NCBI GenBank assembly: GCA_017620475.1
Contig: JAFZQI010000011.1
Span: forward strand, 1-34,596
Reading direction: 5' to 3'
DNA: 34,596 nucleotides
Source: Clostridiales bacterium
GTDB lineage: Bacteria > Bacillota > Clostridia > Saccharofermentanales > Saccharofermentanaceae
The notes beneath the pieces were generated by a model. It saw only the letters and a list, made by a program, of their open reading frames with translations, was not told where the DNA came from and searched no databases. Within the stretch, counting starts at the first letter, position 1, and the number at the start of each line of letters is the position of its first letter. A program made the translations under genes and the position numbers. Shown piece after piece: positions 148-33,745 of the stretch.

Positions 148-2247
148 TTATTTTCCTGCCTTGGCATTGCTCCAGCCGCCGTAGTACACGACGCCGTCGA
201 CTCTCTTATAGGCACGCACTTTGTAGTAGTCGCCCTTCTTGCCGTTCGGGTCGGTATAAGTCAGCGTACCGCCGAGGACACTGGCCACATAGTCGTATTT
301 CCCGGTGGAAGTGTTGTATCTATACACGTTATACCGGTCGGCGCCGCTGGCCTTGGTCCAGGTTAAGGTCACACCCTTGCCGGACTTAAACGTCGCACTT
401 TCCAATGTCGGAGTCGCCAGAGCTACAGCAACGGAAGAAGCATATTTACTATACGAGGTCTCCCCGCTCACGGTCTTTTTGGCGCGGATCATGTAGTAGT
501 AACGTGTTCCCGCCTTAAGTCCCGTATCGGAAGTCGAAGTTCCGGTCGTTGCTTTAACATAGGTGTACGGGCCGGACGCAGAAGTTGCCCGGTAGATCTC
601 ATAGGATCCGGCGCCGCTTACCTCCGTCCATGACAGCCTCATCGTCACACCGCTCTTCGGCTCGGCGGTAAGCTTCGTATCCGGAAGAATCGTCACCTTC
701 TTCGCTTCGGACCAGTCCCCGTTTGTTGTTATTCCGCCTGACTTACTGTATGGGCGGACCTTATAGTAATATGTCTTTCCGCCCTGCGCCGTCTTATCGA
801 CATACTTATAAGAACCATCCGTGACACTTGCCAGATAACTATAGGTTCCGTTCTTACTATCCGAACGGTAGACATTGTATCGGGTAAAGCCATTGACGCT
901 ACTCCACCTGATCTGCACACCGTTATCTGTCGGTTCGGCCTTCGTGATCGTCGGACCGGAGAAGACCAGTTCGAAAGGTTCACTCGAAAAATCCGTCTTT
1001 CCCTCTTCGCAACGGAGCTCTGCCGTAACGTAAACATGATAATCCACGCCCCATCTCGATTGATCTAAGCTGCTCGGAATCTCGAAGTTCTCGATGATTT
1101 TATTCTCCCCGAGGTCTGTGATATCGTCTACCGTACTGTAGTAGAGAAGACTTGCGTCCGGATCCGTGTATTCTTTATCCGTAATGAAGTATACCAGTGC
1201 ATTGAGTGAATCTGCTTCCGTGGAATGGATAGTCACCGGAACCGAAACATTTCTTCCGGAGACGATAAAATCAGAGGATGGTTCATACTGATAGGTCAGA
1301 ATGGGAAGGATCAGAGTCAGCGAATACAAGGTTCCGACCTCTCCATACCAGCCTTCTATTGCAGTTGAGAAGAGAACTTTGGATAGATCTATGTTCATAG
1401 CCGGCGAAACGCCGAAGTCGAAATCACTATCATTCGGCGCGACGTCTCCTGCGACGGTTATCATACCCACAATCTCCGTGCTCAAAGCACTGCCCGAGCG
1501 CAGCCACCAGGTGGCGCAACCATGATCGGTCTCACCATATGAAGCTGTATATTCACTGCCGCTGTTATATTTTATTCTTTCACTGCACTGCATATAACTG
1601 GTTGAATGCCGATAACCGTATGCCGGATTGTGCGCCTCCTCAACATCCAAAAGGAAGAGTTTATCTCCGGAAAGACCAACGTAATTTTCGAAAATATCCT
1701 TGTAAATGCTATCGACCTGGCCGTTCGCAGTACCTACACTGAGCTCATGACCGGAAATAGAACTTTGCCAAATCGCATTTTGTTCCATCGGAGTAAATAC
1801 TTCGCTAAGGAAGGCAGTATCATTAAGTTCTTCTCTGATCTTACTATAGGACCAGTCATTCAAATTATCTTCATCGGTGCCTGTCTTGGAGAAAGTGGAT
1901 TTATAAAGTATATTGTTACAATCCAGGAACATCGTGCGCCCGCCGAATATCGTTGTTTCAGGATCCAGAACGCGGAAAATTATCGGCGCATCATTATAAT
2001 CACCATAACTCACATAGCTTCCCTTCCAATAGTTATCTTCATAAGCATCCGGCGTAACTGGTTTTGCCATTCCTTTCACGCCAAGTTCTGTATTATCAAT
2101 ACTTTTGTACGGAGTCGCATTCACCTTTTTTGTTCCCATAACCATGGAAAAAGCACTGACACCCAGCACTCCGGCGAGCCCCATCGATACGACCCTCATC
2201 ATAATCTTTCCGCTCATGATCCTACCGCTCATGCTCTTTCTTCCCAT
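148..2247 (-). CDS. Secreted DUF6273 protein with three C-terminal fibronectin type III domains
   Basis: A 699-residue exported protein, probably cell-surface or extracellular. I chose the ATG at 2247 because TTGGAGG lies 9 nt upstream; an upstream in-frame GTG at 2286 has no usable ribosome site. Residues 1 to about 44 form a signal peptide with a basic start and a hydrophobic core (GLAGVLGVSAF). Residues about 65-320 resemble DUF6273, with the characteristic WWLRSG and GVSPAMNIDLSKV motifs. Three FnIII repeats fill residues about 430-699, each with the W..V.G...Y.VYR and TYYYKVR pattern. No catalytic motif or LPxTG/sortase anchor is visible, so a binding or scaffold role is an inference. 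DUF6273 has no firmly known function. The word AAAAGCACTG (2149-2158) sits inside the signal-peptide codons. Confidence 0.85.
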   Translation of the reverse strand: MGRKSMSGRIMSGKIMMRVVSMGLAGVLGVSAFSMVMGTKKVNATPYKSIDNTELGVKGMAKPVTPDAYEDNYWKGSYVSYGDYNDAPIIFRVLDPETTIFGGRTMFLDCNNILYKSTFSKTGTDEDNLNDWSYSKIREELNDTAFLSEVFTPMEQNAIWQSSISGHELSVGTANGQVDSIYKDIFENYVGLSGDKLFLLDVEEAHNPAYGYRHSTSYMQCSERIKYNSGSEYTASYGETDHGCATWWLRSGSALSTEIVGMITVAGDVAPNDSDFDFGVSPAMNIDLSKVLFSTAIEGWYGEVGTLYSLTLILPILTYQYEPSSDFIVSGRNVSVPVTIHSTEADSLNALVYFITDKEYTDPDASLLYYSTVDDITDLGENKIIENFEIPSSLDQSRWGVDYHVYVTAELRCEEGKTDFSSEPFELVFSGPTITKAEPTDNGVQIRWSSVNGFTRYNVYRSDSKNGTYSYLASVTDGSYKYVDKTAQGGKTYYYKVRPYSKSGGITTNGDWSEAKKVTILPDTKLTAEPKSGVTMRLSWTEVSGAGSYEIYRATSASGPYTYVKATTGTSTSDTGLKAGTRYYYMIRAKKTVSGETSYSKYASSVAVALATPTLESATFKSGKGVTLTWTKASGADRYNVYRYNTSTGKYDYVASVLGGTLTYTDPNGKKGDYYKVRAYKRVDGVVYYGGWSNAKAGK

Positions 2248-2335
2248 AACACATTTCCTCCAATTCTTCCTCTTTTTTTGTTTCACTACCTTCGCATTGC
2301 ACCGGTCCCGAAATCTGTCTTAACCCGGCTCCCGG

Positions 2336-2364
2336 CATATAACTAATGCGAAATCACTTATCAA
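2336..2364 (-). promoter_or_regulatory. Possible sigma-A promoter for the DUF6273/FnIII gene
   Basis: On the minus strand TTGATA (2359-2364) and TATATG (2336-2341) are separated by 17 bp, about 90 nt upstream of the chosen ATG. The -35 box is good and the -10 box is only four of six, so this is a moderate call. Confidence 0.4.
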
Positions 2365-2398
2365 TTCGATCTTCAGTAAAAATGTCACATTCTTTTAT

Positions 2399-2781: not shown

Positions 2782-4284
2782 TCACCCATCCAGTTCGATT
2801 GAATCGGATATGTAGTACACAAAATCATGATCGAGACAATAATCCCGGATCTTCTGCTCGATCCCCGCATTCTGCGTATACTCCAAAAGATAGATATACA
2901 CGCCCATTTCGGCATACCGCTCGACATAATCGGTGAAGAACAGGAAATCCTCATCATCCGTCTTCCGGGCACGAAGCTCCCCCGCATCCCAATCGATCTT
3001 GGTAAACACCGTCTCCTGGTTGATGCCCGTAATCACATCCCACCAGTCGCCGCGCATCTCCGTATACGCATCGATAAATGAATCGCCGCCGTTCATGATG
3101 ACAACCTTCCCTGTCGCCACCAATCCGCGCATGATGGCCGCCACAGCATCCAGCATCGCATCTGACGGATACACATAATAAACGTCGCAATTATCTACGA
3201 AGAACCCGTCGCAGCCCTTCGCAATCATCTCCGGCACAAGCTCTTCCAGGATGAAGCTCTGCCAGCGCGCAGAAGTCACATCCACCCACTTCTCCTCATC
3301 CCAATGCTCGTAATCCCCAAGGGCAAGATCCGCATACTCCTCATAGTACGGCCGGAAATCCTCGATCGACCCGATATTCAGATAAGAAAGAACATAGACT
3401 TCCTGATTCTTCAGTTTCCAAATCTCTTCCTCGGGAAAATTCTGCGCATCGATGACCACTGTCTGGCCGTACCCGAAATCAAACTGCGAAAGATCCTCCA
3501 CACTCAGAAGCACCTCATAATCGCGCCCGTAGTCCCTGCAGAAATGTTCCTTGTCCCGGAACGAGCAGTATGCATCGAAAAACTCCTGCGGCAGATTCTC
3601 ACGCACAACTTGCCGCATCTCGGAAAAGCGCTTATTCTGCGGGCAGAAACCGCCGCAGTCTTTCAAGATCTGATCGTCTTTTCCATAGATAAAAAGCCAG
3701 CAGCTGCCACCATCGTAGACCTCATCCGGGTCCAATTCCTCCGGATCCAGCTCATACAATTCCTCCAAATCGATCCCGTTTCTCATATTTTCGAATTGCT
3801 CATCCGTCAGCTCGAAAAGCACTGTTTCTTTTCGTGTTGTGCCATTAGACAGACTATGGTTGAAATCCGCCTCGATCCGCTTATCGTACCGCACCCGCAA
3901 GACGCAGACCGGATCGTTATCATAGATCGAATACGTGCTGTAATCGTATCCGACAAGATATATATCACTCAGTTCCAGGTCCCCGAAATCCGAACCGTCA
4001 GCCGTTCCGGCAATTGAACCATCCACCGGATCCGCATCAGACAGTGCTTTTCTATCGGAATCGGATGCGGTAGAATTCGTCTTCACCGGCTCCTTACGGG
4101 AATTCTTCCCTTTCTTTTCCGAGAATTCTTCTTTCCCGCAACCCGCAAGGGAAAGGATCATCGCCAGAACCAGCAGAACAGCCGCCACGCTTTTGCCTCC
4201 CGATTGCCCTGACACCTCAGCGGCAATCTTCATGCCTGCATCGCATCTCCTACGAGCAATCCCTGTTAAACCCGAATTTCTCAT
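2782..4284 (-). CDS. Lipoprotein with a C-terminal GH114/TM1410-like glycosidase domain
   Basis: About 500 residues. The N-terminus carries a lipoprotein signal (hydrophobic stretch, then LSLAGC with the lipid-modified Cys), followed by a Lys/Ser-rich linker. The first half (about 75-240) is acidic and unassigned. The second half (about 250-500) resembles the TM1410/GH114 family, putative endo-alpha-1,4-polygalactosaminidases, with EVYVLSYLNIGSIEDFRPYY, KGCDGFFVDNCDVYY and a late MNGGDSF segment. The Asp residues of the DGFFVDN motif are candidates for the active site. An alternative start at 4233 (MKIAAEV) would give a shorter, more usual n-region; neither start has a strong ribosome site. 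It lies downstream of the GH16 gene but behind a strong terminator, so it may be separately transcribed. A role in degrading or remodelling extracellular galactosamine polysaccharide is inferred. Confidence 0.8.
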   Translation of the reverse strand: MRNSGLTGIARRRCDAGMKIAAEVSGQSGGKSVAAVLLVLAMILSLAGCGKEEFSEKKGKNSRKEPVKTNSTASDSDRKALSDADPVDGSIAGTADGSDFGDLELSDIYLVGYDYSTYSIYDNDPVCVLRVRYDKRIEADFNHSLSNGTTRKETVLFELTDEQFENMRNGIDLEELYELDPEELDPDEVYDGGSCWLFIYGKDDQILKDCGGFCPQNKRFSEMRQVVRENLPQEFFDAYCSFRDKEHFCRDYGRDYEVLLSVEDLSQFDFGYGQTVVIDAQNFPEEEIWKLKNQEVYVLSYLNIGSIEDFRPYYEEYADLALGDYEHWDEEKWVDVTSARWQSFILEELVPEMIAKGCDGFFVDNCDVYYVYPSDAMLDAVAAIMRGLVATGKVVIMNGGDSFIDAYTEMRGDWWDVITGINQETVFTKIDWDAGELRARKTDDEDFLFFTDYVERYAEMGVYIYLLEYTQNAGIEQKIRDYCLDHDFVYYISDSIELDG

Positions 4285-4293
4285 CAATACAAA

Positions 4294-5919: not shown

Positions 5920-6043
5920 ACCTTGTGAAAAGCACTGTGTGTTTGTGTTTTTTTGATACTCGTTTTCATGCGTCGGAGCCGCGTCCGCCGCGTCACAGTT
6001 CTTTTGCCAAAGAAGGCGGAGCGAAAGAAATAAAGGAGGCCCC

Positions 6044-6781: not shown

Positions 6782-6852
6782 ACAGGACGCGCCCTTTAGA
6801 AAAGCACTGATGTTTATTCTTTTCGAAAACCGCTGAGACCGTTTTTCCTTAG

Positions 6853-6884
6853 AAAAGCACTGAGGCGGATTTTGTCCGCCTCAG
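6853..6884 (-). terminator. Terminator of the Ser/Gly lipoprotein whose tail is the AAAAGCACTG word
   Basis: The arms CTGAGGCGGA (6860-6869) and TCCGCCTCAG (6875-6884) form a perfect 10-bp hairpin with a 5-nt loop. The hairpin includes the stop codon of the minus-strand lipoprotein gene (6881-6883). Read on the minus strand the stem runs into TGCTTTTCTAAGG, so the repeated word supplies the short U-run. It could also end the plus-strand AraC transcript. A second copy of the word lies at 6800-6809. Confidence 0.7.
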
Positions 6885-7798
6885 AAATTGGTATCTTCTT
6901 CACCTGCCAGATCGCCGGTATAAAGTGTCTGTTCTACTCTTGAAACCGACGGTTCGCCCGATTGCTTGTCCGAAGGTCCCGCTGTCTCGGAAGGACCCTG
7001 CTGGCCGTTTGAATGATCAGTCTGATTACCCGAAGAACCGGACTGGCTTCCGGAAGAACCGGACTGGCTTCCGGAAGAACCTGACTGTCCGCCGGAAGAT
7101 CCGGACTGCTTCCCCGAAGGATCGGTCTGCTGATCCGATGACCCGGACTGATTACCCGATGAACCGGATTGGCCGCTTCCCGAAGAGCCTGACTGACTTC
7201 CTGAAGACCCTCCCTGCACATCGGAAGGATCGGTATTCTGATTCGAACCATCTGACGGATCAGAGTTATTGTTAGAAGAAGGATCTGTCGGATCTTCCTT
7301 TTGATCTCCCGCACCATTGTCATTGGAAGACGGTGTCTTGCCGGAAGAACCGGAATCACCATTGTCGATAATATACTCGCCGGGTTCTAAATCTTCCCAC
7401 GAAGGTGAAGTCTGCTTTTCCGCCGGTGTGCTTGTCGTGGAAGCAGGTTCTGTTGTTTCCGTTTTTCCGCTTTCAGAAGAACCTGTATTGCCGTTCTCAG
7501 AAGGTTCAGAAACCGAAGTGGTCACCGCGCCCGAGGATGCAGCAGCTGAGCTGCTCTGGGCAGCACCAGATCCGTTTTCATCAGAAGGATCACCGCTCGT
7601 TGTCGCAGAGGTGCTGCTTCTCGCACCTCCCGAGGATTCACCGCCGCCAATCAGGTCAGGATCCGAGATCACCGCCTGCTGATTCGTCTTCTCGTCAAGA
7701 GGAGCGCCCGACACACTCGTCTCACTCCCCGCCTTGTCATGACAGGCAGTAGCGAGAATCAAACTTATTGAAAGAATAATAACTAACGACTTTTTCAT
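6881..7798 (-). CDS. Low-complexity Ser/Gly/Asn/Gln-rich lipoprotein
   Basis: 305 residues. The N-terminus is a lipoprotein signal (MKKSLVIILSISLILATAC, lipid-modified Cys at 19). Almost everything after it is disordered-looking sequence rich in Ser, Gly, Asp, Pro, Gln and Thr. Residues about 190-270 are tandem QSGSSGN-like heptapeptides encoded by 21-bp repeats (about 7030-7200). No enzymatic domain is visible; a surface spacer or anchor is likely. The start codon has no ribosome site of its own and lies 5 nt after the stop of the upstream mini-peptide gene, so translation is probably coupled to it. Homology searches will mostly return composition matches. Confidence 0.75.
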   Translation of the reverse strand: MKKSLVIILSISLILATACHDKAGSETSVSGAPLDEKTNQQAVISDPDLIGGGESSGGARSSTSATTSGDPSDENGSGAAQSSSAAASSGAVTTSVSEPSENGNTGSSESGKTETTEPASTTSTPAEKQTSPSWEDLEPGEYIIDNGDSGSSGKTPSSNDNGAGDQKEDPTDPSSNNNSDPSDGSNQNTDPSDVQGGSSGSQSGSSGSGQSGSSGNQSGSSDQQTDPSGKQSGSSGGQSGSSGSQSGSSGSQSGSSGNQTDHSNGQQGPSETAGPSDKQSGEPSVSRVEQTLYTGDLAGEEDTNF

Positions 7799-13784: not shown

Positions 13785-13818
13785 AACGCTATCCTCTCTA
13801 CTAACCAAAATCCCAGTT

Positions 13819-14455: not shown

Positions 14456-16249
14456 TCAGCTGATCGGCTCGAAATCGGCAGCGCCGTGTTTACAGAGCGG
14501 ACATACGAAGTCTTCCGGAAGCTCGTCGCCTTCGTAGACATATCCGCAGACCTTACATACGTAGCCCTTCTTGCCTTCCGTCTCCGGCTTCGGCTTAACA
14601 TTCTTCTGGTAATAGGTGTAGGTCATCGTCTCCTTATCGGACAGCACACGGGCCTCGGTCACGGAGCAGATGAACATGCCGTGGGTGTCAAGGTCAACGT
14701 AATCCTCGACCTTCAGCGACATGAAGGAGTTGATGTACTTCGGCAGGAAGATCAGGCCGTTATCGGAACGCAGGAGCTTTTCGCATCCCGCAAACTTATC
14801 GACATTTCTTCCGCTTTGGAAACCGAAGGTCTCGAAGACCTTGAACGGAGCTTCAACGGAAAGGCAGTTGACGTTCATGACCCCCGTCTGCTTGATGACG
14901 TGGTGCGAATAGTTCTGCTTGTTGATCGTTACGGCGATACGGTTCGGCGTGTTAGTCACCTGAGTTACGGTGTTGACGATGAGGCCGTTGTCCTTCTTCC
15001 CGTCATTGGAAGTGACCACATAAAGGCCGTATCCGATATTAAACAGCGCGGTCAGATCGTTCTTATTCGCAGTATCTTCCTTCTGCGCAAGATAGTCCTG
15101 ACACAGTTCTTTTGCCAAAGCATCGACCTGCGCCTTCGACTCGTCATAAAGAGCCGACATGATCTTGACGTTGTTCTCGGTATAGGTGATATTCTTGCTC
15201 TTTTCGAGCATGGCCTTCATGGTGCGGATGGCCTGCGGCGCCCAGGAACCGTTCTCGATCATGGCAACGGTCTTATTCTGGAACTGGCGCTCCGTCAGGT
15301 GATGGATGAATTCTCTCATGAACGGGAACACATCCGCGTTGTATGTCGTGGTCGCGAGTACAATTCTGCCGTAGCGGAAGGCGTCCTCCACACACTCGGC
15401 CATGTCTTCTCTTGCCAGGTCGTTCACAACGACCTTCGGGCATCCGTTCTCCTTGAGCTTATTCGCCAGAAGCTCCACTGCCGCCTTGGTGTGGCCGTAT
15501 ACGGAGGTGTAGAAAATGGCGATGCCCTCAGTCTCGACGCCATAGGAAGACCAGGTGTCATAAAGCTTGAGGTACGGGGAAAGATCGCCGGTCAGAACGG
15601 GACCGTGGAGCGGGCAGATCGTCTTGATCTCAAGGCCCGCCGCCTTCTTGAGGACCTGCTGCACCTGTGCGCCGTATTTTCCGACGATACCGATGTAATA
15701 GCGTCTTGCCTCACAAGCCCAATCCTCTTCAACATCGAGGGCGCCGAATTTTCCGAATCCGTCCGCACTGAAAAGCACTTTGTCGAAGGTGTCGTAGGTC
15801 ATGAGGACTTCCGGCCAGTGGACCATCGGTGCACCGACGAATTTCAGGACGTGTTTTCCCAGCGGGAGCTCATCGCCCTCACCCACCACGATGCGGCGGT
15901 CTTCGAACTCGGTTCCGAAGAAGTTCTTCATCATGGTGAAGGCTTTCTGCGAAGAGACGATCTGCGCCTGGGGATAATTCTTCATGAAATTCACGATATT
16001 GGCGGAATGGTCCGGTTCCATGTGCTGGACGACCAGATAATCCGGAGCCTTCCCATCCAGTGCTTTTTCCAGATTATCGAGCCATTCATGGGTGAAATTC
16101 TTATCCACCGTATCCATAACCGCGACCTTATAATCGCTGATCACATAGGAGTTATACGCCATGCCGTTCGGCACCACATACTGTCCTTCGAAAAGGTCGA
16201 TCTGGTGATCATTTACGCCCACATACTTAATTTCATTACTTATAAACAT
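14456..16249 (-). CDS. Flavodiiron protein fused to a flavin reductase domain and a rubredoxin
   Basis: 597 residues. The start at 16249 is chosen because GGGAAAGGA lies just upstream. Residues 1 to about 240 are a metallo-beta-lactamase-like diiron domain with the full ligand set: H76, E78, D80, H81 (HMEPDHS), H144, D163 and H215 (PLHGP). Residues about 245-390 are a flavodoxin (IFYTSVYGHTKAAVELL) that binds FMN. Residues about 415-550 are a flavin reductase-like domain (NIGYGLYVVTSNDG, VTQVTNTPNRIAVTINK). Residues about 560-597 are a rubredoxin with CKVCG and CPLC. Such proteins reduce O2 to water (or NO to N2O) in the cytoplasm of anaerobes; carrying both reductase and rubredoxin lets one chain pass electrons from NAD(P)H inward. 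Reverse rubrerythrin lies two genes upstream in the same direction, consistent with oxygen and peroxide defence. Confidence 0.93.
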   Translation of the reverse strand: MFISNEIKYVGVNDHQIDLFEGQYVVPNGMAYNSYVISDYKVAVMDTVDKNFTHEWLDNLEKALDGKAPDYLVVQHMEPDHSANIVNFMKNYPQAQIVSSQKAFTMMKNFFGTEFEDRRIVVGEGDELPLGKHVLKFVGAPMVHWPEVLMTYDTFDKVLFSADGFGKFGALDVEEDWACEARRYYIGIVGKYGAQVQQVLKKAAGLEIKTICPLHGPVLTGDLSPYLKLYDTWSSYGVETEGIAIFYTSVYGHTKAAVELLANKLKENGCPKVVVNDLAREDMAECVEDAFRYGRIVLATTTYNADVFPFMREFIHHLTERQFQNKTVAMIENGSWAPQAIRTMKAMLEKSKNITYTENNVKIMSALYDESKAQVDALAKELCQDYLAQKEDTANKNDLTALFNIGYGLYVVTSNDGKKDNGLIVNTVTQVTNTPNRIAVTINKQNYSHHVIKQTGVMNVNCLSVEAPFKVFETFGFQSGRNVDKFAGCEKLLRSDNGLIFLPKYINSFMSLKVEDYVDLDTHGMFICSVTEARVLSDKETMTYTYYQKNVKPKPETEGKKGYVCKVCGYVYEGDELPEDFVCPLCKHGAADFEPIS

Positions 16250-16303
16250 AAACCATTCCTTTCCCGCGCATCCCGCGCGCCACAAGTCAAGTTACTTCTC
16301 ATA

Positions 16304-23050: not shown

Positions 23051-23083
23051 TCCTTAAGCAAGCAACAACGGGGGGTGGAGCGC

Positions 23084-23518
23084 TTGTACACGGTGAGTCG
23101 TTTTCGAGTTGTCCGAACTCGGCACAACATGACACAGGCGCAGGTCGCCTGTGCGCTCGGCTGTTCCCAGGCTTCGTACTCGCGCTACGAACTGGGGCGG
23201 ATCCAGATTCCCGTCGACCTTCTCGTGCAGATCGCCGACATGTACGGAGTCTCGACCGACTACCTGCTCAACCGAAGCGACCTGCCCGATCGAGACAATC
23301 TGCCCGAAGAATTGGCGGGTCCAGCTGGGAACGAAGCCTCAGCCAACGAAGGTGACGCATCCGGAACTGAGGCACACGAAGTATCGGGACTCAGTGCTTT
23401 TGCGGACGAAGCTGAGCTATCGGAATACGAAATCAAACTGATCCTGGCGTCGCGATCTGCTGACGAACGAGCCAAGCAGGATGCGCTATCTCTGCTCGAA
23501 AAGCACTGTGCGGAGTAG
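23084..23518 (+). CDS. XRE-family helix-turn-helix regulator 2
   Basis: About 144 residues. The start is ambiguous: a TTG at 23084 has GGGGG 8 nt upstream, a GTG at 23075 would overlap that site, and a GTG at 23093 is also in frame. The helix-turn-helix fills residues about 5-65 (RFRVVRTRHNMTQAQVACAL, CSQASYSRYELGRIQIPVDL, YGVSTDYLLNRSD). The second half is acidic and Ala/Ser/Glu-rich and ends with a short helix (LILASRSADERAKQDALSLL). It contains two copies of the AAAAGCACTG word in opposite orientation (23392-23401 and 23499-23508), the second encoding E-K-H-C near the stop. It belongs with the preceding XRE gene. Confidence 0.8.
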   Translation: MYTVSRFRVVRTRHNMTQAQVACALGCSQASYSRYELGRIQIPVDLLVQIADMYGVSTDYLLNRSDLPDRDNLPEELAGPAGNEASANEGDASGTEAHEVSGLSAFADEAELSEYEIKLILASRSADERAKQDALSLLEKHCAE

Positions 23519-24052: not shown

Positions 24053-25420
24053 TCAGATCTTCGGCAGATTCTCCGCGTACTTAGCCAGTTCCTCATCTGT
24101 CGGGATGTAATCATCCATCTTTCCGTCATGGAACTTCTCATAAGCAACGAGGTCGAAGTAACCTGTACCTGTAAGACCGAATACGATGGTCTTCTCCTCG
24201 CCGGTCTCCTTACACTTCATCGCCTCATCGATCGCCGCACGGATCGCGTGAGAGCTTTCCGGTGCCGGGAGGATACCTTCAACACGGGCAAACATCTCCG
24301 CCGCCTCGAATACATCCGTCTGCTTAACGGATCTAGCCTCCATGAAACCATCATGATAGAGCTGGGACAGCGTTGAGCTCATGCCGTGATAACGCAGGCC
24401 GCCGGCGTGGTTCGGAGCCGGAATAAAGTCGGAACCAAGCGTGTACATCTTCGCAAGAGGACATACCATACCGGTATCGCAGAAGTCATATGCGAACTGA
24501 CCACGTGTGAAGCTCGGGCAGGATGCCGGCTCAACAGCGATGATGCGATAATCTGCTTCGCCACGGAGCTTCTCACCCATAAACGGAGCAATCAGACCGC
24601 CGAGGTTCGATCCGCCGCCTGCGCAGCCGATAATGATATCCGGCTTCACGCCGAGCTTATCGAGCGCCGCCTTGGTCTCCAGACCGATCACGGACTGATG
24701 GAGCAGAACCTGATTCAGAACAGAACCGAGCACATAACGGTAACCCGGCGTACCAACAGCCACTTCCACCGCCTCGGAAATCGCACAACCCAGAGAGCCT
24801 GTCGTACCCGGGTGCTTTTCGAGGATCGCGCGGCCAACATTTGTCGTATCCGACGGAGAAGGCGTAACAGAAGCACCATACGTTCTCATCACCTCACGGC
24901 GGAACGGCTTCTGCTCATAAGAAACCTTAACCATGTACACTTTACAATCAAGATCGAAATACGAGCAAGCCATCGACAAAGCCGTACCCCACTGGCCGGC
25001 ACCGGTCTCGGTAGTCACGCCCTTCAGCCCCTGCTTCTTCGCGTAATAAGCCTGAGCAATCGCGGAATTCAGCTTATGGGATCCGCTTGTGTTGTTACCC
25101 TCGAACTTGTAGTAGATCTTCGCCGGAGTACCGAGTTTCTTCTCAAGGAAGTAAGCACGTACCAGCGGAGACGGACGATACATCTTATAGAAATCCAGGA
25201 TCTCATCCGGGATCGGGAAATAAGCGGTATCATTATCGAGCTCCTGCTTAACGAGTTCTTCGCAGAAAACGCCGTTCAGCTCTTCAGCCTTCATCGGCTC
25301 ATGCGTACCCGGGTTCAGAAGCGGCGCCGGCTTATTCTTCATGTCCGCGCGCATATTGTACCAAGCGGTCGGGATCTCCTTTTCATCAAGGTAGGTTTTG
25401 TAAGGAATTCTCTCAGACAT
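24053..25420 (-). CDS. trpB: Tryptophan synthase beta chain-like protein TrpB2
   Basis: 455 residues, longer than the TrpB of the operon and of the TrpB2 type. The ATG at 25420 follows AAAGGAGA by 8 nt. PLP features are present: the Schiff-base Lys in NTSGSHKLNSA, TTETGAGQWG with the catalytic Glu, and the phosphate-binding CAGGGSNLGG. TrpB2 proteins condense indole and serine to tryptophan and do not depend on TrpA, so they may salvage indole. The gene lies after trpA but has its own promoter and its own T-box with a UGG specifier. This indicates that the cell treats it as a tryptophan-responsive gene separate from the operon. It is not a recent duplicate of the operon trpB, since the two differ throughout. 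Confidence 0.92.
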   Translation of the reverse strand: MSERIPYKTYLDEKEIPTAWYNMRADMKNKPAPLLNPGTHEPMKAEELNGVFCEELVKQELDNDTAYFPIPDEILDFYKMYRPSPLVRAYFLEKKLGTPAKIYYKFEGNNTSGSHKLNSAIAQAYYAKKQGLKGVTTETGAGQWGTALSMACSYFDLDCKVYMVKVSYEQKPFRREVMRTYGASVTPSPSDTTNVGRAILEKHPGTTGSLGCAISEAVEVAVGTPGYRYVLGSVLNQVLLHQSVIGLETKAALDKLGVKPDIIIGCAGGGSNLGGLIAPFMGEKLRGEADYRIIAVEPASCPSFTRGQFAYDFCDTGMVCPLAKMYTLGSDFIPAPNHAGGLRYHGMSSTLSQLYHDGFMEARSVKQTDVFEAAEMFARVEGILPAPESSHAIRAAIDEAMKCKETGEEKTIVFGLTGTGYFDLVAYEKFHDGKMDDYIPTDEELAKYAENLPKI

Positions 25421-25540
25421 AATGTGTCTCCTTTCGTAATATGGGCGTTTGCCCGAATCTCCTTTGGACCTTTTCCTCGGCAAAAGCACTTGTCGCCGGT
25501 GGTTTTTGGTCCTTGGGGCTGACTTCTCTTTTCTGCCGGA

Positions 25541-25585: not shown

Positions 25586-25890
25586 AACGATATTCTTTCC
25601 TGCGGTGCCACCCGGCTTGATCGCTCCGCTTCCGCGTCGCCGATCCTCTCACGCATACCGACATATGCTGGTTTTTGATGACGGGGAACCTTGCCCCGGC
25701 GCAGATACTTGTTTCTTCCTTTGCTTCTCGAAAAGCACTGTGACCCGGCTTTTCGATTCTTATGCAAAACAAGGAACTTTCCCCTTGCCCTCGAAAGTCC
25801 ATTCGGAACAGTTTCTTCGTGCTGCACTCTCACCACCGGCAACTCTCTGTACGGAAGGAGCTCTGTTCTTACTCACTCTTTCTCTACGGT
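25541..25890 (-). promoter_or_regulatory. T-box riboswitch (tRNA-Trp) controlling trpB2
   Basis: The leader contains the T-box sequence GGGTGGCACCGCA (25601-25613), an AGAGAGTTGCCGGTGGTGAG-type stem I region (about 25819-25847), and a specifier position reading GAATGGAC. There TGG (25799-25801) is the Trp codon followed by a purine, as usual. Uncharged tRNA-Trp pairs with the specifier and T-box and prevents the terminator, so trpB2 is expressed when Trp is scarce. One AAAAGCACTG word (25731-25740) lies between stem I and the antiterminator, within CTTCTCGAAAAGCACTG. Confidence 0.92.
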
Positions 25891-25975: not shown

Positions 25976-26004
25976 CAGTGCTTTTCGCAAGGAACAGTGC
26001 TTTT
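25976..26004 (-). repeat. Tandem pair of the AAAAGCACTG word after trpA
   Basis: Two direct copies of TTGCGAAAAGCACTG (minus strand) lie 19 bp apart just after the trpA stop codon. They are the closest-spaced copies of the window-wide word. The pair is outside coding sequence and overlaps no clear hairpin. Confidence 0.9.
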
Positions 26005-26013: not shown

Positions 26014-26784
26014 TCAGCGGATCGCGTCCTTCATCGACTTAACAAAAGAACCGATGCTCTCGGGTGCCTGCGTCCCTTTCTCCTCCAGGATCTTCACGAT
26101 CGCCGAGCCCACGATCACGCCATCCGCCGCCTTTGCCATCTCCGCAGCCTGCTCGGGCGTCGAGATCCCGAATCCGATCGCGCACGGCACGTCTGTCACC
26201 TCGCGGATCCTGGACACAACATCGGAAAGCCCGGTCGCAATCGACGACCGCATCCCCGTCACGCCCATGCTCGAAACGATATAAATGAAGCCTTTCGCCT
26301 CTTTGGCAATCATGGTCACGCGTTCCTCGGAAGTCGGCGCCACCATCGAAATCAGGTCCACATCGTATTTTTCACAGATCGGCTCGAACTCGTCTTTCTC
26401 CTCGTACGGGATGTCCGGAATGATCAGCCCGTCGATGCCGATTTCCTTACATGTCCCGATGAAACGCTCTGCGCCGTACGAAAACACAACGTTGGCGTAG
26501 GTCATGAACACCAGCGGGATCGACACTTCCCGGCGGATCTTGCGCACCAGATCGAACACCTTGTCCGTCGTGATACCGCCCGCGAGCGCGCGGATATTGG
26601 CACCCTGGATCACCGGGCCCTCCGCCGTCGGATCCGAAAACGGGATCCCCAATTCAATCAGATCCGCCCCGTTTTGCACCGCCTCCACGACCGCGTGCAA
26701 AGTCGTCTCCACATCCGGATCACCGCAGGTAATAAACGGAATAAATGCTTTTCCATTTGCAAAAGCACTGGCTATTTTACTCAT
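26014..26784 (-). CDS. trpA: Tryptophan synthase alpha chain
   Basis: 256 residues, full length. The start at 26784 follows GAAGGAG. The TIM-barrel family motifs are present: FITCGDPDVETT, DLIELGIPFSDPTAEGPVIQ with the catalytic Glu and Asp, and the late phosphate-binding GFGIST and GVIVGSAIV. It cleaves indole-3-glycerol phosphate to indole, which is channelled to TrpB. It is the last gene of the trpEGDCFBA operon, 87 nt after trpB. Codons for S-A-F-A and K-A-F near the N-terminus form an inverted pair with one AAAAGCACTG word (26761-26770). Confidence 0.95.
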   Translation of the reverse strand: MSKIASAFANGKAFIPFITCGDPDVETTLHAVVEAVQNGADLIELGIPFSDPTAEGPVIQGANIRALAGGITTDKVFDLVRKIRREVSIPLVFMTYANVVFSYGAERFIGTCKEIGIDGLIIPDIPYEEKDEFEPICEKYDVDLISMVAPTSEERVTMIAKEAKGFIYIVSSMGVTGMRSSIATGLSDVVSRIREVTDVPCAIGFGISTPEQAAEMAKAADGVIVGSAIVKILEEKGTQAPESIGSFVKSMKDAIR

Positions 26785-26811: not shown

Positions 26812-26887
26812 TCACTCGTGGATATCTTTAATTCACTTCAACAGAATAATCGGATCACGCGTCTCGCGATCTCACTCGTGAATATCT
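26812..26887. repeat. Partial duplication of the trpB 3' end in the trpB-trpA gap
   Basis: TCACTCGTG-ATATCTT occurs at 26812-26828 and again, with one substitution, at 26872-26888, where it encodes the last residues and stop of trpB. The copies are 60 bp apart. The flanking TCTCC...TCGTATCTG also resembles the trpB copy. Confidence 0.6.
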
Positions 26888-28059
26888 TCTCCTCTGTATC
26901 TCGCGATCGCTGCGCAATCCTTGTCGCCGCGGCCCGAAACCGTCACCACGATGATCTTATCCTTGTCCATCTTCGGCGCGATCTTCATCGCGTGAGCAAT
27001 CGCATGCGATGACTCGATCGCCGGAATGATCCCCTCCGTACGGGACAAGTACTCGAATGCCTCGACCGCTTCGTCATCTGTCACCGGCACATAGGAAGCG
27101 CGTCCAATATCGTGGAGGTACGCATGCTCCGGACCGACACCCGGATAATCCAGGCCTGCCGAAATCGAGTAAACCGGCGCGATCTGGCCGAACTCATCCT
27201 GGCAGAAATACGACTTCATACCGTGGAAAATACCAAGTTTTCCAGTGCTGACCGTTGCCGCCGTCTCAAATGTATCGATTCCGCGTCCGGCCGCCTCACA
27301 GCCGATCAGCTGAACACTCTTATCCTCGATGAAATGGTAAAAAGACCCGATGGCGTTACTGCCGCCACCGACACAGGCCATCACCACATCCGGCAGGCGC
27401 CCTTCTTTTTCGAGCATCTGCTGCTTGGTCTCCTTACTGATGACCGCCTGAAAATCCCGGACGATCGTCGGGAACGGGTGCGGCCCCATGACCGATCCCA
27501 GACAGTAATGCGTATCGTCCACACGCGTCGTCCATTCGCGCATCGCCTCGGACACCGCATCCTTCAGCGTCCTCGTACCCGTCATGACCGGCACCACCGA
27601 TGCACCCAGAAGCTTCATGCGGTACACATTCAGCGCCTGGCGTTTGGTATCTTCTTCGCCCATAAACACCACGCATTCCATCCCGAAAAGCGCTGCGGCC
27701 GTGGCGGTTGCAACGCCATGCTGTCCGGCGCCGGTCTCCGCGATCAGACGGGTCTTACCCATCTTCTTCGCCAGCAGCGCCTGTCCCAAAACATTGTTTA
27801 CCTTATGTGCACCCGTATGGTTCAGGTCCTCTCTTTTCAGGTAGATCTTCGCACCGCCAAGATCCTCCGTCATTTTCTTAGCAAAATACAGTCTCGACGG
27901 ACGATTCGCATACTCGTTGAAAAGTTCCGTCAGCTCGGCCTGAAATTCCGGGTCGTTCTTATAGTGCTCATACGCCTGTTCCAGTTCATGAATCGCATGC
28001 ATCAGCGTCTCAGGAATATACTGCCCGCCATGCACACCAAATCTTCCAACCTTTTCCAT
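26872..28059 (-). CDS. trpB: Tryptophan synthase beta chain (TrpB1)
   Basis: 395 residues, the normal length. I chose the ATG at 28059 because GGGAAAGGA lies about 8 nt upstream; ATGs at 28077 and 28104 lack a ribosome site. PLP-binding Lys is in HTGAHKVNN, the catalytic Glu in AETGAGQHG, and the phosphate loop is [10 protein letters not shown]. It condenses indole with serine. The N-terminal [16 protein letters not shown] is typical of the TrpA-partnered type, in contrast to the TrpB2 gene downstream of the operon. It begins 28 nt after the trpF stop. Confidence 0.95.
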
Positions 28060-28087
28060 CGTCAAATCCTTTCCCATATATCGATTC

Positions 28088-28792
28088 TCATTCGCCGCGA
28101 ACATTCAAAATGAATTCGCGCATCTTCACTTCATCTTTCACGCCGTCCGTCTCGATCCCGGAACTCACATCCACACCATATGGCCGAAGCCACGTGACCG
28201 CCTCGCCAACGTTGCTGCAGTTCAATCCCCCCGCAAGGATATACGGTCTTTGCACCTTTTTCAATACTTCCCAGTCAAAAGCACTTCCGCTTCCGCCGCC
28301 GGGTGTGTCCAGAAGGATCAGATCCGCAGACGACTTCTCCGCTCTCTCCACATCCTCTTCATTACGGATCCCAAAAGCCTTGATGATCCGCACCTTTCCA
28401 ACATCCTGTGGTTCTTCACACTTACGAAGATCCTTTTTCGTTTGCTTAGCACGATTACTGCAACCGTCCGCCGCAGCCGCCCGCACGTCATTTGCTTTCT
28501 TTATGGCCGCCCGCAGATCGCGGATGTACTCTTCCGACTCATTCCCATGAAGCTGCGCGATATCTATAATACCACCGGTCAGAAGTTCCGCGACTACCGA
28601 AATCTCTTCATCGACAAAAACACCGACCGCCCTGACCCCGGGATCCAGTGCTTTTCGCAAAGAAGCAACTTCAGCCGGCGAAACATAACGTTTCCGTCCC
28701 GGCACGATCACAAACCCTGCCAAATCAGGCTTACAGCGGTTCACCGCCGCCACATCCTCCGGTCTTCTGATTCCACAAAACTTAACGATCAA
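28088..28792 (-). CDS. trpF: Phosphoribosylanthranilate isomerase with an internal insertion
   Basis: 234 residues, about 30 more than usual. It starts with TTG at 28792; GAGG lies 7 nt upstream. Family motifs: [12 protein letters not shown] with the catalytic Cys, [29 protein letters not shown] with the catalytic Asp, and [10 protein letters not shown]. It opens the ribosyl ring of PRA by Amadori rearrangement. Extra residues (about 95-130, Lys/Ala/Cys-rich, around [20 protein letters not shown]) interrupt the barrel between the QLHG strand and the KAFG strand. Two AAAAGCACT words lie in the gene, one encoding R-K-A-L-D and one encoding G-S-A-F-D in the phosphate loop, where the family usually has GTGKTFDW-like residues. 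Confidence 0.93.
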
Positions 28793-29024: not shown

Positions 29025-29924
29025 TCACCGCTTGCCCCGAAGCTCAGCCAGCGTCGTCTTCTTGTCCGCTGCCCGCATGAGCGTCTCGCCCACGAGCACC
29101 GCATCCACGCCGATTGCCTCAAGCGCTCGCACATCCGCGGCCGTCCGGATCCCGCTCTCCGCCACGAAAATAACTCCCGGCGGCACAAGTTTCCGCAGTT
29201 TCGCGCTGTTGCCCGTATCGACGGAAAAATCCGCAAGATTCCGGTTGTTGACGCCGATCACCCGCGCCCCCGCCACAACGGCATCGTACACTTCGCCTTC
29301 ATTATGCGTCTCGAAAAGCGCTGTCAGCCCGAGGCTGTTGCATATGGCCGCATACTCCGATAGCTGCGACGGCTCCAGGATCGAACAGATCAGCAGGACC
29401 GCCCCCGCGCCCAGAACTTTGGCCTCGTAGATCATGTATTCATCCACCGTAAAGTCCTTTCGAAGGCACGGCACATTCACCGCCGCCGCGATCTCCTCAA
29501 GGTACGCGTCCGATCCCAGGAACCACCGGGGTTCCGTCAGCACCGAAATGCAATCCGCGCCCGCCGCCTCGTAGTCCCGCGCGATCTGAAGATACGGAAA
29601 ATCCTCCGCAATCACGCCTTTGCTCGGCGAAGCCTTTTTGCACTCGCAGATGAAGGACATGCCATCCCGGCGAAGCGCCTCCTCGAAAGCAAAAGCCTTG
29701 GGGCCGGTTGCTTTTGCCGATGCAAAAGCACTTTCCCCTTTCCGATTCATCACCTCTCCACTAAGCGAATCTGCACTCCGTGAATCCACACTAAGCGGAT
29801 CCGCCTTCGCCTGAAGCCGGCAGATCTCCTCCGCCCGCGCACGCATCTCCGCCAGCGGCACCTGTGCCTTCCTCATTTCGGTTCTCTCTCTGGCATAAGC
29901 CGCCAGTTCATCCAAAATCGTCAT
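29025..29924 (-). CDS. trpC: Indole-3-glycerol phosphate synthase with an N-terminal-side insertion
   Basis: 299 residues; the family is usually about 255-270. The ATG at 29924 has GAAGGG 9 nt upstream, provided by the last part of a 35-bp repeat. Core motifs: FICECKKASPSKG, SVLTEPRWFLGS, LRKDFTVDEY, LFETHNEGE, GVNNRNLADFSVD and FVAESGI. It closes the indole ring from CdRP. The extra segment (residues about 38-75) lies between the first helix and the ECKKASPSKG strand. It is Ser/Ala-rich and holds the word AAAAGCACT (29724-29732) within a DNA palindrome, GCTTTTGC-CGAT-GCAAAAGC (29710-29729). Confidence 0.94.
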   Translation of the reverse strand: MTILDELAAYARERTEMRKAQVPLAEMRARAEEICRLQAKADPLSVDSRSADSLSGEVMNRKGESAFASAKATGPKAFAFEEALRRDGMSFICECKKASPSKGVIAEDFPYLQIARDYEAAGADCISVLTEPRWFLGSDAYLEEIAAAVNVPCLRKDFTVDEYMIYEAKVLGAGAVLLICSILEPSQLSEYAAICNSLGLTALFETHNEGEVYDAVVAGARVIGVNNRNLADFSVDTGNSAKLRKLVPPGVIFVAESGIRTAADVRALEAIGVDAVLVGETLMRAADKKTTLAELRGKR

Positions 29925-31117: not shown

Positions 31118-31213
31118 AAAAGCACTGTCTGCCTTTCGTTTTCTTCTTTACTTTTTCCTGGGTTCGCTCCAGTTTCGCTCAAATGTCAAAAAAAGCGAAT
31201 CCTGAGCGAAACT
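31118..31213. repeat. AAAAGCACTG word plus nested-dyad TTCGCTC element between trpG and trpD
   Basis: CTTCTCGAAAAGCACTG (31111-31127) is the same 16-17-base string found in both T-box leaders. Next to it, AGTTTCGCTCA (31171-31181) and TGAGCGAAACT (31203-31213) are an 11-bp perfect inverted repeat. Additional copies of TTCGCTC (31163-31169) and AGCGAA (31194-31199) allow an alternative pairing. The loop contains AAATGTCAAA, as in the TCACC elements. Confidence 0.75.
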
Positions 31214-31242: not shown

Positions 31243-31809
31243 TCACGACGAAAGAAAGTTCCTTAGGATCTGCTCCCCATCCGGCGTCAGGATCGACTCC
31301 GGATGAAACTGCACGCCATAGATCGGATAGTCCCGATGCTCCACCGCCATCACTTCACCCTCATCCGTCACCGCCGTCACCTTCAGTTCCTCCGGTAACG
31401 TCGCAGGATCCGCAATCAGTGAGTGGTACCTCGCCACCGGAAATCTCTTCTCCATCCCACGGAAAAGCACTGTTTCCGTGTCGGCCGTGACCACCGATTG
31501 TTTCCCGTGCATCAGCCGCGGCGCATAGGTCACCGTCGCCCCGAATACCATGCAGATCGCCTGATGCCCCAGGCAGACCCCGAGTATCGGAAACTTCCCC
31601 TTAAGGGAACGGATCACTTCCGGCACGACCCCCGCATTCTCCGGTCTTCCCGGGCCAGGCGACAGAACGATGTGCGAAGGTGAAAGCGCCTCGATCTCTT
31701 CGATAGAAAGTTCATCATTACGCACCACCCGGATATCCGGATCGATTGCACCGATCATCTGAAAAAGGTTGTAGGAAAAACTATCGTAATTATCAATCAG
31801 CAAAATCAT
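31243..31809 (-). CDS. trpG: Anthranilate synthase glutamine amidotransferase component
   Basis: 188 residues, the usual size. The ATG at 31809 follows GGAGGAAG and overlaps the trpE stop as ATGA, a classic coupling arrangement. It starts MILLIDNYDSFSYN and has the nucleophile in GVCLGHQAI and the His/Glu pair in VQFHPES. It supplies ammonia from glutamine to TrpE. One AAAAGCACTG word (31463-31472) encodes V-L-F here. Confidence 0.95.
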   Translation of the reverse strand: MILLIDNYDSFSYNLFQMIGAIDPDIRVVRNDELSIEEIEALSPSHIVLSPGPGRPENAGVVPEVIRSLKGKFPILGVCLGHQAICMVFGATVTYAPRLMHGKQSVVTADTETVLFRGMEKRFPVARYHSLIADPATLPEELKVTAVTDEGEVMAVEHRDYPIYGVQFHPESILTPDGEQILRNFLSS

Positions 31810-33335
31810 AATTCTTCCTCCTTTCCGCCGCGCGCTCCGGCTGCGCGACACGCAGTTTCTGCACGCGCGCCATCCTCTTCCTCCTGCGCCGCCTGAAGCG
31901 CCCGCACCACAGCCTTGGCCTTATTGATGCACTCCTGATATTCCTTCTCCGGATCCGAATCCGCCACGATCCCAGCGCCGCTTCTCACGAAGACTTTCCC
32001 GTTCTTCTTATACGCAATACGGATCGCAATACACGTATCCATATTCCCGGCAAAATCGATATATCCGATCGCCCCGCCGTAGATCCCGCGCTTATTATTC
32101 TCCAGTTCACCGATGATCTGGCACGCCCGGATCTTTGGCGCACCTGACAGTGTTCCTGCCGGCAGCACCGCCTCCACCGCATCCAGCGCATCCTTATCCT
32201 CACGGATCCGCCCGCGCACGGTCGAGCCGATATGCATCACATGCGAGAACCGCTCGATGGAATGCAGTTTCTCGACCTCTACTGTTCCAAAATCACTGAT
32301 CCTTCCGAGGTCATTTCTCCCCAGATCCACAAGCATATTATGCTCAGCCAGTTCTTTTGCATCCGAAAGAAGGTCAGCCTCCAAAGCCAGATCCTCCTCG
32401 TCTGTAGCGCCGCGTGGCCGCGTCCCGGCTAAGGGGAACGTATGCAGCACGCCATCCTTAAGATTCACCAGCGTCTCCGGTGACGCCCCGGCCACCTCAA
32501 CATCGGTACCCGAAAAATAAAACATATACGGAGACGGGTTGATCGTCCGAAGATAGCGGTACGTGTCCAGAAGGCTTCCCTCAAACGGCGCCGACAAACG
32601 GTTGCTCAGCACCACCTGGAAAATATCCCCCTCATGGATATAATGCTTTCCTTTTTCCACCATCTCCATGAACTGCTCTTTGCCGAAGAGCGGCGCCGGC
32701 TCCGCCAAAAGCCGTCCCTTATGCTCTCCGTCCGCCTTGCCGTGAAAGATCAGTTCTCTCATCTGCTCAAGTTCCAGGACCGCCTTGTTGTAGCCAACCT
32801 CACCGTCCTTAAGGAACATGTTGGCGATCAGGATGATCTTCTGCGCATAATTATCGAAAGCGATGACCTTGTCAAAAAGCATCAGGTCGATGTCCTGAAA
32901 GCCCTCTTCGTCCTCGGTCTCCACCCGCGCAGTCGGCTCGCTGTAATAAAGATAATCGTAGGAAAAATACCCCACCAGTCCCCCGGTAAAAGGCGGCAGG
33001 TACGAAAACCTCGGGCTCTTATACTCACCCAGGATCTGCCTTAAATACTTATTCGGCTCACGCGTCTCGATACACACGTCACCGATCCGCATCTTCCCGT
33101 CGCTGCAGGTCACGGACACCTTCGGCTCAAATCCGAGAAATGTATATCTTCCCCATTTCTCATTCTCCGCCACCGACTCCAGCATATAGCAATGCGTCGA
33201 CACGGTCTTAAGGACCTTCATGGTCTCGATCGGCGTCCTAACATCCGACAGAAGTTCGCAGCTTAAGGGAACAACACTGAAGCGGCCCTCCTGCGCGATC
33301 TTCTGCACTTCCGAAAATGCAGGAACAATCTTCAT
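31806..33335 (-). CDS. trpE: Anthranilate synthase component I
   Basis: 509 residues. The ATG at 33335 follows GGAGG by 7 nt. The N-terminal half carries the probable Trp feedback region (PLSCELLSDVRTPIETMK, then the conserved TGGLVGYFSYD). The chorismate-binding half has GASPETLVNLKDGVLHTFPL, AGTRPRGATDEED, HNMLVDLGRNDLGRI, GTLSGAPKIRA and GGAIGYIDF. It makes anthranilate from chorismate with TrpG. The Glu/Ala-rich C-terminal tail after ALQAA is longer than usual. It is the first gene of the operon, behind the T-box. Confidence 0.96.
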   Translation of the reverse strand: MKIVPAFSEVQKIAQEGRFSVVPLSCELLSDVRTPIETMKVLKTVSTHCYMLESVAENEKWGRYTFLGFEPKVSVTCSDGKMRIGDVCIETREPNKYLRQILGEYKSPRFSYLPPFTGGLVGYFSYDYLYYSEPTARVETEDEEGFQDIDLMLFDKVIAFDNYAQKIILIANMFLKDGEVGYNKAVLELEQMRELIFHGKADGEHKGRLLAEPAPLFGKEQFMEMVEKGKHYIHEGDIFQVVLSNRLSAPFEGSLLDTYRYLRTINPSPYMFYFSGTDVEVAGASPETLVNLKDGVLHTFPLAGTRPRGATDEEDLALEADLLSDAKELAEHNMLVDLGRNDLGRISDFGTVEVEKLHSIERFSHVMHIGSTVRGRIREDKDALDAVEAVLPAGTLSGAPKIRACQIIGELENNKRGIYGGAIGYIDFAGNMDTCIAIRIAYKKNGKVFVRSGAGIVADSDPEKEYQECINKAKAVVRALQAAQEEEDGARAETACRAAGARGGKEEEL

Positions 33336-33436
33336 CTTCTTTCCTCCTTCTTCACCCGCCGTCCACGCTCGCGTCTTCGGCAAAATCTTCGCCATTTCAC
33401 GCTTACATCTTCGGCTTATTCTCGTTCCGGGAGGAA

Positions 33437-33476
33437 ACAAAAAATCCTCGACAGAACACATGATTTCTGTCAAGGA
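33437..33476 (-). terminator. T-box-controlled terminator before trpE
   Basis: On the minus strand TCCTTGACAGAA and TTCTGTCGAGGA form a 12-bp stem with a small loop, followed by TTTTTTG. It lies just after the T-box sequence. Confidence 0.88.
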
Positions 33477-33745
33477 CGAATTACATCGCGGTGCCACCTT
33501 GATTCACGGCCACTTGTGCCGTGCACTTAGCGAGATACCATCATATCCCCGGCAAGTAACGTATGCCTTCACGTTGCAGAATACTTTGCTTCCGGAAATC
33601 TCTTTTCTTCTCGAAAAGCACTTTCCCTCGGCATTTGACTGCACCCTCAGCGGTCCATTTGATGACTTGTTTTCCGCCGGATTCTCATCCTCGCCGGCTC
33701 TCTGTAGGAGCATCATCACCGTTATCTCCGCGTCAACGGTTTGAT
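33437..33745 (-). promoter_or_regulatory. T-box riboswitch (tRNA-Trp) controlling the trp operon
   Basis: The T-box sequence GGTGGCACCGCG lies at 33487-33498. The stem I region has CTACAGAGAGCCGGCGAGG and later GCTGAGGGTGCAG. The specifier reads CAAATGGACC, with TGG (33655-33657) the Trp codon followed by A. The mechanism is tRNA-dependent antitermination, so the whole operon rises when charged tRNA-Trp falls. The string GTGCTTTTCGAGAAG (with the AAAAGCACT word at 33614) is shared with the trpB2 leader in the same relative place. Confidence 0.92.

Follow-up and report, generated by a model that had tools for sequence, protein, structure and literature searches.

A repeated word in a trp-bearing stretch of DNA

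The DNA considered here is a stretch of 34,596 nt (contig JAFZQI010000011.1 of a Clostridiales bacterium of the family Saccharofermentanaceae; called the window below, and all positions are those of its whole length). It carries a trp region, and scattered over it are many copies of the ten-base word AAAAGCACTG, which a first-pass annotation had likened to DNA uptake sequences. The excess of this word is confirmed as real and is not bound to the window; the word forms the core of a motif of some 22 bp that recurs throughout the genus and probably acts as a DNA uptake sequence favouring the genus's own DNA.

The window holds 18 copies of AAAAGCACTG, whereas 100 shuffles gave a mean of 0.06 and a largest count of 1. 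A recount returned all 18 coordinates and strands exactly as the first-pass annotation had given them, together with the positions of its five copies of AAAAGCACTT (15771, 25482, 28277, 29724 and 33614) and of the near-copies AAAAGCGCTG at 27686 and 29314. That set of spellings was sound as far as it went but incomplete, since a third form, AAAAGAACT[GT], contributes four more window copies; a single extra AAAAGCGCTT lies at 3624. Genic and intergenic calls in the window rest on the listed open reading frames (ORFs), and names come from Pfam-type matches where given. By that list the earlier figure of 14 of the 23 copies in genes stands, counting copies wholly inside likely genes; our crude gene caller missed the helix-turn-helix (HTH) ORF 23075-23518 (Pfam HTH_3), which holds the copies at 23392 and 23499. 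AAAAGCACTG is about 3.8 times as dense in the window as in the genome on average (18 copies versus about 4.7 expected).

In the account that follows, bits are scores against the motif matrix described below. ORF 148-2286 (-) contains AAAAGCACTG at 2149-2158 (+, 17.2 bits), and ORF 2782-4287 (-) contains it at 3815-3824 (+, 23.7 bits) and 4042-4051 (-, 22.7 bits). The intergenic copy at 5928-5937 (+, 24.3 bits) faces a variant, AAAAGAACTG, 69 bp away at 5996-6005 (-, intergenic, 24.2 bits), and two further intergenic copies stand in tandem at 6800-6809 (+, 19.5 bits) and 6853-6862 (+, 19.2 bits), the second of which leads, by eye, into the inverted repeat CTGAGGCGG...CCGCCTCAG. ORF 11598-13808 (-) has one AAAAGCACTG at 12490-12499 (+, 20.5 bits), while ORF 14456-16285 (-) carries all three forms: the variant AAAAGAACT[GT] at 15104-15113 (-, 22.7 bits), AAAAGCACTT at 15771-15780 (+, 14.0 bits) and AAAAGCACTG at 16058-16067 (-, 17.3 bits). 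An intergenic AAAAGAACT[GT] at 17181-17190 (-, 16.1 bits) is followed by AAAAGCACTG at 17241-17250 (-, 12.8 bits) in a rubrerythrin-family ORF, 17211-17798 (-). The HTH ORF (+) has AAAAGCACTG at 23392-23401 (-, 19.3 bits) and at 23499-23508 (+, 26.4 bits), where it codes for E-K-H. AAAAGCACTT at 25482-25491 (+, 24.3 bits) lies across the listed 5' end of ORF 24053-25489 (-), and beyond it come intergenic copies of AAAAGCACTG at 25731-25740 (+, 26.8 bits) and, in tandem, at 25976-25985 (-, 24.1 bits) and 25995-26004 (-, 22.5 bits).

Among the trp genes, AAAAGCACTG is found near the trpA start at 26761-26770 (+), in trpF at 28646-28655 (-, 26.2 bits), in the intergenic space upstream of trpD at 31118-31127 (+, with 29.4 bits the highest score of the copies given here) and in trpG at 31463-31472 (+). 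AAAAGCACTT occurs in trpF at 28277-28286 (+), in trpC at 29724-29733 (+, 23.2 bits; a stretch that is gapped in the aligned relatives) and in an intergenic position at 33614-33623 (+, 27.0 bits); trpE contains AAAAGAACT[GT] at 32349-32358 (-, 22.7 bits).

Two other features of the window may be recorded. One trp region has two genes for pyridoxal phosphate-dependent, TrpB-like proteins (24053-25489 and 26872-28104); among the trp loci of 20 congeners the first of these finds a 94% match in G018 only, and the other 19 match it at 28-35%, as expected of the second kind. ORF 6881-7798 appears by eye to encode a long Ser/Gly/Gln repeat behind a lipoprotein-like start.

An extended motif throughout the genome

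In the window's own genome (G000, a 2.68 Mb draft of 50 contigs) AAAAGCACTG has 365 copies, 194 forward and 171 reverse, versus two (2 + 0) of the reversed-word control. Counts close to expectation outside the window, which the first-pass annotation had named as grounds for dropping its proposal, were thus not what we found, and these 365 copies rule out an anomaly of the window only. In 434,596 bp of this genome (20 stretches plus the window) CAGTGCTTTT is the top 10-mer, with 89 copies versus 1.46 expected from an order-3 Markov model, and CAGTTCTTTT has 48 versus 2.9.

Alignment of 135 AAAAGCACT sites revealed a graded 5' flank, with T at -12 (51%), T at -9 (61%), C at -7 (76%), C at -4 (53%), G or T at -3 (89%) and G at -1 (61%), and with G or T directly 3' of the core in 93%. 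The 5' CG extension described earlier was therefore right in kind (G in 61% at -1, C in 45% at -2), though the conserved C at -7 had been overlooked. The motif of G000 can be written T..T.C..C[GT][GC]G-AAAAG[CA]AC[TC][GT], about 22 bp. Beyond about -13 to +11 none of 75 aligned columns in these sites exceeded 0.14 bits, and because there is no long shared flank the word is not a mobile repeat, the other ground on which the earlier proposal was to have been given up. With a matrix of 24 columns, refined and then scored on the same 540,905 bp, 290 sites (one per 1.9 kb) reached 16 bits or more, versus 3.2 in simulated sequence; scaled to the whole genome this would give about 1,400. Known uptake words are put at roughly 1 per kb (PMC5397411), about twice this density.

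A palindrome, CTTTTCGAAAAG, likewise exceeds expectation in 20 stretches of G000 (L111-L130), with 16 counts on both strands, that is 8 places, versus 0.38, and TTTTCGAAAAG reaches 10 versus 0.6 expected in stretches of G008. Facing words account for these excesses only in part.

Position relative to genes and strands

Placement was analysed in 537,905 bp of G000, which contain 219 exact AAAAG[CA]ACT[GT] sites, with genes called by a crude codon-score script. Of these, 151 are wholly genic, 62 are intergenic and 6 lie at gene boundaries, and the density is 0.325 per kb in genes versus 0.85 between genes. All six reading frames are used by the genic sites, five of them holding from 3 to 59 sites and the sixth 2 (same strand: same-2 59, same-0 14, same-1 3; opposite strand: opposite-1 39, opposite-2 34, opposite-0 2). 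The gaps between genes contain 16 sites where the genes converge, 30 where they are in tandem and 23 where they diverge, or 1.04, 1.01 and 1.12 sites per kb; the link to terminators that had been suggested earlier thus failed to appear as an enrichment in terminator-type gaps. Facing pairs are few, at least one of them (in stretch L111) being followed by a T run, and 16 neighbouring pairs lie within 100 bp of each other among about 211 AAAAG[CA]ACT sites in 435 kb.

When strands were assigned by GC skew, 99 sites proved to be leading-strand and 118 lagging-strand (together 217 of the 219; the other two are on contigs that were not tabulated), so no leading or lagging bias was seen. Forward and reverse counts are likewise similar across the 23 genomes of the genus, where contig orientation is arbitrary. 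Sites are present on all nine tabulated contigs, and on the three contigs where regular spacing was looked for none was found, the spacing being near random (coefficient of variation, CV, 0.97-1.18).

Restriction to one genus, and spellings within it

All 23 genomes of the genus contain 36-370 copies of AAAAGCACTG, and the other 92 of 115 family genomes contain 0-18; in 24 genomes of the order from outside this family the count is 2-14. The presence of the word in 23 separate genomes makes contamination or an assembly artefact unlikely. One of them, G020, corresponds to record LVAV01000022.1, Clostridiales bacterium Firm_16 (100% over 18,595 bp). GTDB genus Firm-16 of the Saccharofermentanaceae has been named Candidatus Scatonaster and comes from diverse mammalian guts (PMC8957277), and by this match of names the word-bearing genus would be Candidatus Scatonaster.

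The genus does not spell the word in one way. Copies of AAATGCACTG number 244, 184 and 177 in G009, G016 and G010, and 4-33 in each of the remaining 20 genomes (control 0-3). The same three genomes contain 36, 189 and 199 copies of AAAAGCACTG, respectively, so that G009 uses mainly AAATGCACTG and G010 and G016 carry both spellings. AAAAGAACTG is found 291 times in G018, 218 in G000 and 10 in G006 (control 4-18), and it is the preferred form in G008, G020 and G021 (103, 127 and 107 copies versus 69, 89 and 89 of AAAAGCACTG). GGCAAAAGCAC, the best 11-mer of G006 (16 versus 0.22), was considered as a dialect of that genome and dropped; because each of the 23 genomes has 16-165 copies of it (control 0-5), it counts as one of the motif's common forms. 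In a FastTree tree of nine proteins (in which some branches are weak and G010 covers 734 of 3,326 columns), G009 does not group with the G010/G016 pair as its sister, and the genomes poor in the word are spread over three positions.

The flanks of AAAAGCAC or AAA[AT]GCAC were compared in seven groups (G000; G009; G006; G010/16; G014/17/19; G003/13/18; and nine other-clade species). C at -7 (52-68%) and G or G/T at -3 were present in all seven, T at -9 in six, C at -4 in five and G at -2 in four. That one flank consensus is kept around different cores suggests that the motif has a reader. In G008, G020 and G021 there is no C at -7 around AAAAGCAC; around AAAAGAACT (41 sites, 39 of them distinct, in 516 kb) T at -9 (54%), T at -8, C at -7 (54%) and G at -2 are kept, and a decoy word in the same genomes is without these columns. 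With the flank retained around AAAAGAACT, plain erosion of the motif in these three genomes was rejected. A search of 140-156 kb from each of the three for another top word gave none as clear as that of G000. In G021 linked words, among them TCTTCGACTGT, ACAGGAGCTTC and TGCTCGACAGG, are each present 7-11 times in 140 kb (stretches L160, L161 and L198-L202) and look like parts of a longer repeat dispersed in this one genome.

Conservation and base change at shared sites

Usual words were identical in 386 of 1896 aligned orthologous pairs (20.4%) versus 10.9% for flank 10-mers, with the qualification that such pairs share ancestry and hence are not independent, and 40 permuted decoy words were identical in 138 of 1115 (12.4%) versus 15.1% for their flanks. 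The word is thus conserved above both flanks and decoys; taken site by site, 110 of 217 exceed their own flanks and 76 fall below them.

Several shared sites differ between species in the spelling itself. At the trpA start (window 26761) CAAAAGCACTGG is found in G000, G017 and G019, CAAATGCACTGG in G009 and AAATGCACTGG in G010; the G009 and G010 copies of this site spell AAATGCACTG, and six further species have AAAAGCACT[GT]. A site in trpC has AAATGCACTG in G009, AAAAGCACT[GT] in nine species and no word in G000, and at the trpG site (window 31463) AAAAG[CA]ACT[GT] also occurs in G014, G007, G005, G003, G013 and G018. Dialect alignments were drawn from 2.22 Mb of the 23 genomes. When G009 AAATGCAC[TC][GT] sites were aligned to species except G010 and G016 (111 alignments), 25 met AAAAG[CA]ACT[GT], 2 the G009 form and 84 neither; the reverse comparison (116 alignments) gave 25 of the G009 form, 15 of AAAAG[CA]ACT[GT] and 76 of neither. 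Of the 69 alignments of an AAAAGCACT[GT] site to G009, 17 show the A4 to T substitution and nothing else, 2 show no difference, 1 shows a different one-base change and the remaining 49 are more different or gapped; the distinct G009 positions behind the first three classes number 6 switched, 2 identical and 1 other. In other target genomes A4 to T was seen in 3 pairs of G010, 3 of G016 and 1 of G008, and in none of G020, G021 or G000. Position A7 changes to G in 6 G021 pairs and to T in 4 G020 pairs.

Predicted pilus and competence genes

Genes for a type IV pilus and for competence proteins, which the first-pass annotation had proposed to look for, are predicted across the genus: PilB in 22 of the 23 genomes, ComEC in 21, ComEA in 22, and DprA and N_methyl pilins in all 23. 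The pilus operon of G000 has Pfam matches to A24_N_bact, T2SSE (twice), T2SSF, PilM_2, PilN and N_methyl. The N_methyl pilins are the more genus-specific part, being found in 6 of 18 relatives outside the genus. The candidate receptors are two minor pilins encoded after pilO, one PilV-like (L143:18114-18698) and one PilJ-like (L143:18695-19240); for the latter Foldseek returned no PDB match at E <= 0.001.

By eye, the PilV-like pilin and its orthologs have a C-terminal, zinc-ribbon-like Cys/His pattern in most of the genus members printed, and a sister-genus pilin of 199 aa in L178 has one Cys at that end. Another pilin of about 240 aa (L223:9257-9988, on contig C44 of G000), with similar ORFs in L225, L227, L230 and L233-L242, has a linker rich in Pro and Thr, and its C-terminal part varies between species of the genus; it adjoins ORFs that resemble, by eye, a tRNA nucleotidyltransferase and a CAP-like protein. 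We set it aside as a receptor, judging it more likely an adhesin, perhaps a swappable one. G010, listed as 95% complete, has both spellings, ComEA, ComEC and DprA, and only 3 pilin matches.

Discussion

For decades, the only uptake words on record have come from two proteobacterial families. The DNA uptake sequence (DUS) of the Neisseriaceae is GCCGTCTGAA or one of its dialects, and placement in terminators is typical, though not defining, of the uptake words of Neisseria and Haemophilus. With the DUS the present motif shares a short word (about 10-12 bp) repeated hundreds to thousands of times, limitation to a lineage, and genes (here predicted) for a type IV pilus, ComEA and ComEC. It differs in that AAAAGCACTG is an unrelated word, neither GCCGTCTGAA nor a dialect of it, in its host, which belongs to the Clostridia, in a weak flank consensus reaching about 12 bp upstream and in having no terminator preference, and both its receptor and its role in uptake are putative. 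Species dialects are common to both, and the two spellings of G010 and G016 have a counterpart in Simonsiella muelleri, whose genome carries two DUS dialects (PMC3630211). The uptake signal sequence (USS) of the Pasteurellaceae resembles it in another way: a 9-nt core, weaker and spaced flanks that extend to about 32 nt, dialects, and a proposed minor-pilin receptor, ComN/PpdA (PMC12616744). The USS, however, belongs to another phylum, its core is AAGTGCGGT or ACAAGCGGT (PMC3630211), and its two AT-rich tracts lie 3' of the core, whereas the weak flank here is 5' of the core as written. The word belongs to neither the Neisseriaceae nor the Pasteurellaceae family of words. A 2025 paper gives these two families as the only ones known (PMC12616744), and a genome screen in Veillonella reports no sequence of at least 10 bp in at least 100 copies (PMC5397411). 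A combined search for Clostridia and uptake sequences among open papers in PubMed Central returned none. The letters AAAAGCACTG or CAGTGCTTTT do turn up in 155 such papers, and none of the 15 listed titles points to a word of this kind.

Because the motif is strand-neutral, limited to a genus, conserved at orthologous sites and divided into dialects that differ in part at shared sites, and because pilus and competence genes are predicted in the genus, it resembles the DUS and USS more than Chi or FtsK-orienting polar sequences (KOPS), and the earlier likening to uptake sequences gains support. Chi and KOPS words are strand-polar, with a leading-strand bias, and the Chi- or KOPS-like role that had been offered as an alternative is disfavoured by the 99 leading and 118 lagging sites. 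A recombination signal of the Chi type, which an AddAB/RecBCD-type nuclease-helicase would read within the cell, is accordingly unlikely in our estimate, even though Chi words too are abundant, short, lineage-specific and found both in and between genes. Graded information over about 22 bp, including C at -7, would better suit a protein that binds duplex DNA than the single-strand reading of 5-8 nt, and we know of no Chi that differs by one base between species of one genus. Quite unlikely as well is a site of chromosome architecture or segregation (KOPS or SpoIIIE recognition sequences (SRS), matS, a Noc or nucleoid-protein site): the spread over the genome and the local enrichment in the window would suit it, but the motif is neither palindromic nor polar, its spacing is near random and it is present on every tabulated contig.

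Near-random spacing would equally be expected of a passive or selfish repeat, or of a mutation or repair bias of the kind proposed for the highly iterated palindrome HIP1, acting with no binding protein. We consider this very unlikely, as the word has no long flank, is kept at orthologous sites above decoys and has the same flank consensus around different cores. A regulatory site or half of a terminator is highly improbable. In its favour are the greater density between genes and the few facing pairs, at least one of them with a T run, yet the 151 wholly genic sites largely exclude it, promoter-type and terminator-type gaps have no excess, and close pairs are only 16 among some 211 sites.

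Several observations count against an uptake sequence. Terminator-type gaps are not preferred; G006, G008, G020 and G021 are poor in AAAAGCACTG (36, 69, 89 and 89 copies) despite matches to PilB, ComEC, ComEA and DprA, and although the favoured third spelling of the last three fits an uptake sequence, their low density does not. Competence and pilus genes are not specific to the word, because word-free relatives outside the genus carry them too (ComEC and ComEA in 17 of 18, T2SSE ATPases in 18 of 18). G010 keeps its words, yet no full PilB was found in it, which may reflect either a gap in the assembly or a pilus lost recently. PilO is named by gene position alone, with no PilO match in the Pfam search, and no receptor that co-varies with spelling was found. 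At shared sites, besides the common ancestry of the pairs, the AAATGCAC spellings are not above their flanks (24 of 319, 7.5%, versus 12.9%), and the distinct G009 positions that are identical or one step away number only 9.

If the motif nonetheless serves in uptake, the word on free DNA outside the cell would be recognised by a minor pilin of the predicted type IV pilus, a PilT-like ATPase would retract the pilus, ComEA and ComEC would pass one strand inward, and DprA with RecA would recombine it. Sites would accumulate as word-bearing alleles were taken up and recombined more often than word-less ones, and a shift in receptor preference would lead to the rewriting of sites and so to dialects. 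On balance we incline to a broader view, held less firmly than the uptake role itself: that this is a third, independently evolved password for self DNA, the first of its kind among Bacillota and for a genus of gut anaerobes, with a motif of about 22 bp in at least 23 species that would be read by a fast-evolving minor pilin, and with one-letter dialects that seemingly have more than one origin, replaced one another at sites shared between species and would divide up gene exchange among congeners.

Were this so, an independent case in the Clostridia would mean that the uptake-word trick evolves again, and a genus with both pure and mixed spellings would let the co-evolution of receptor and word be watched. 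It would also make testable whether such words spread by biased uptake, as a form of drive, or as favoured recognition of kin. For the organisms themselves, it would imply that uncultured gut Clostridia may be transformable, and would indicate with which DNA.

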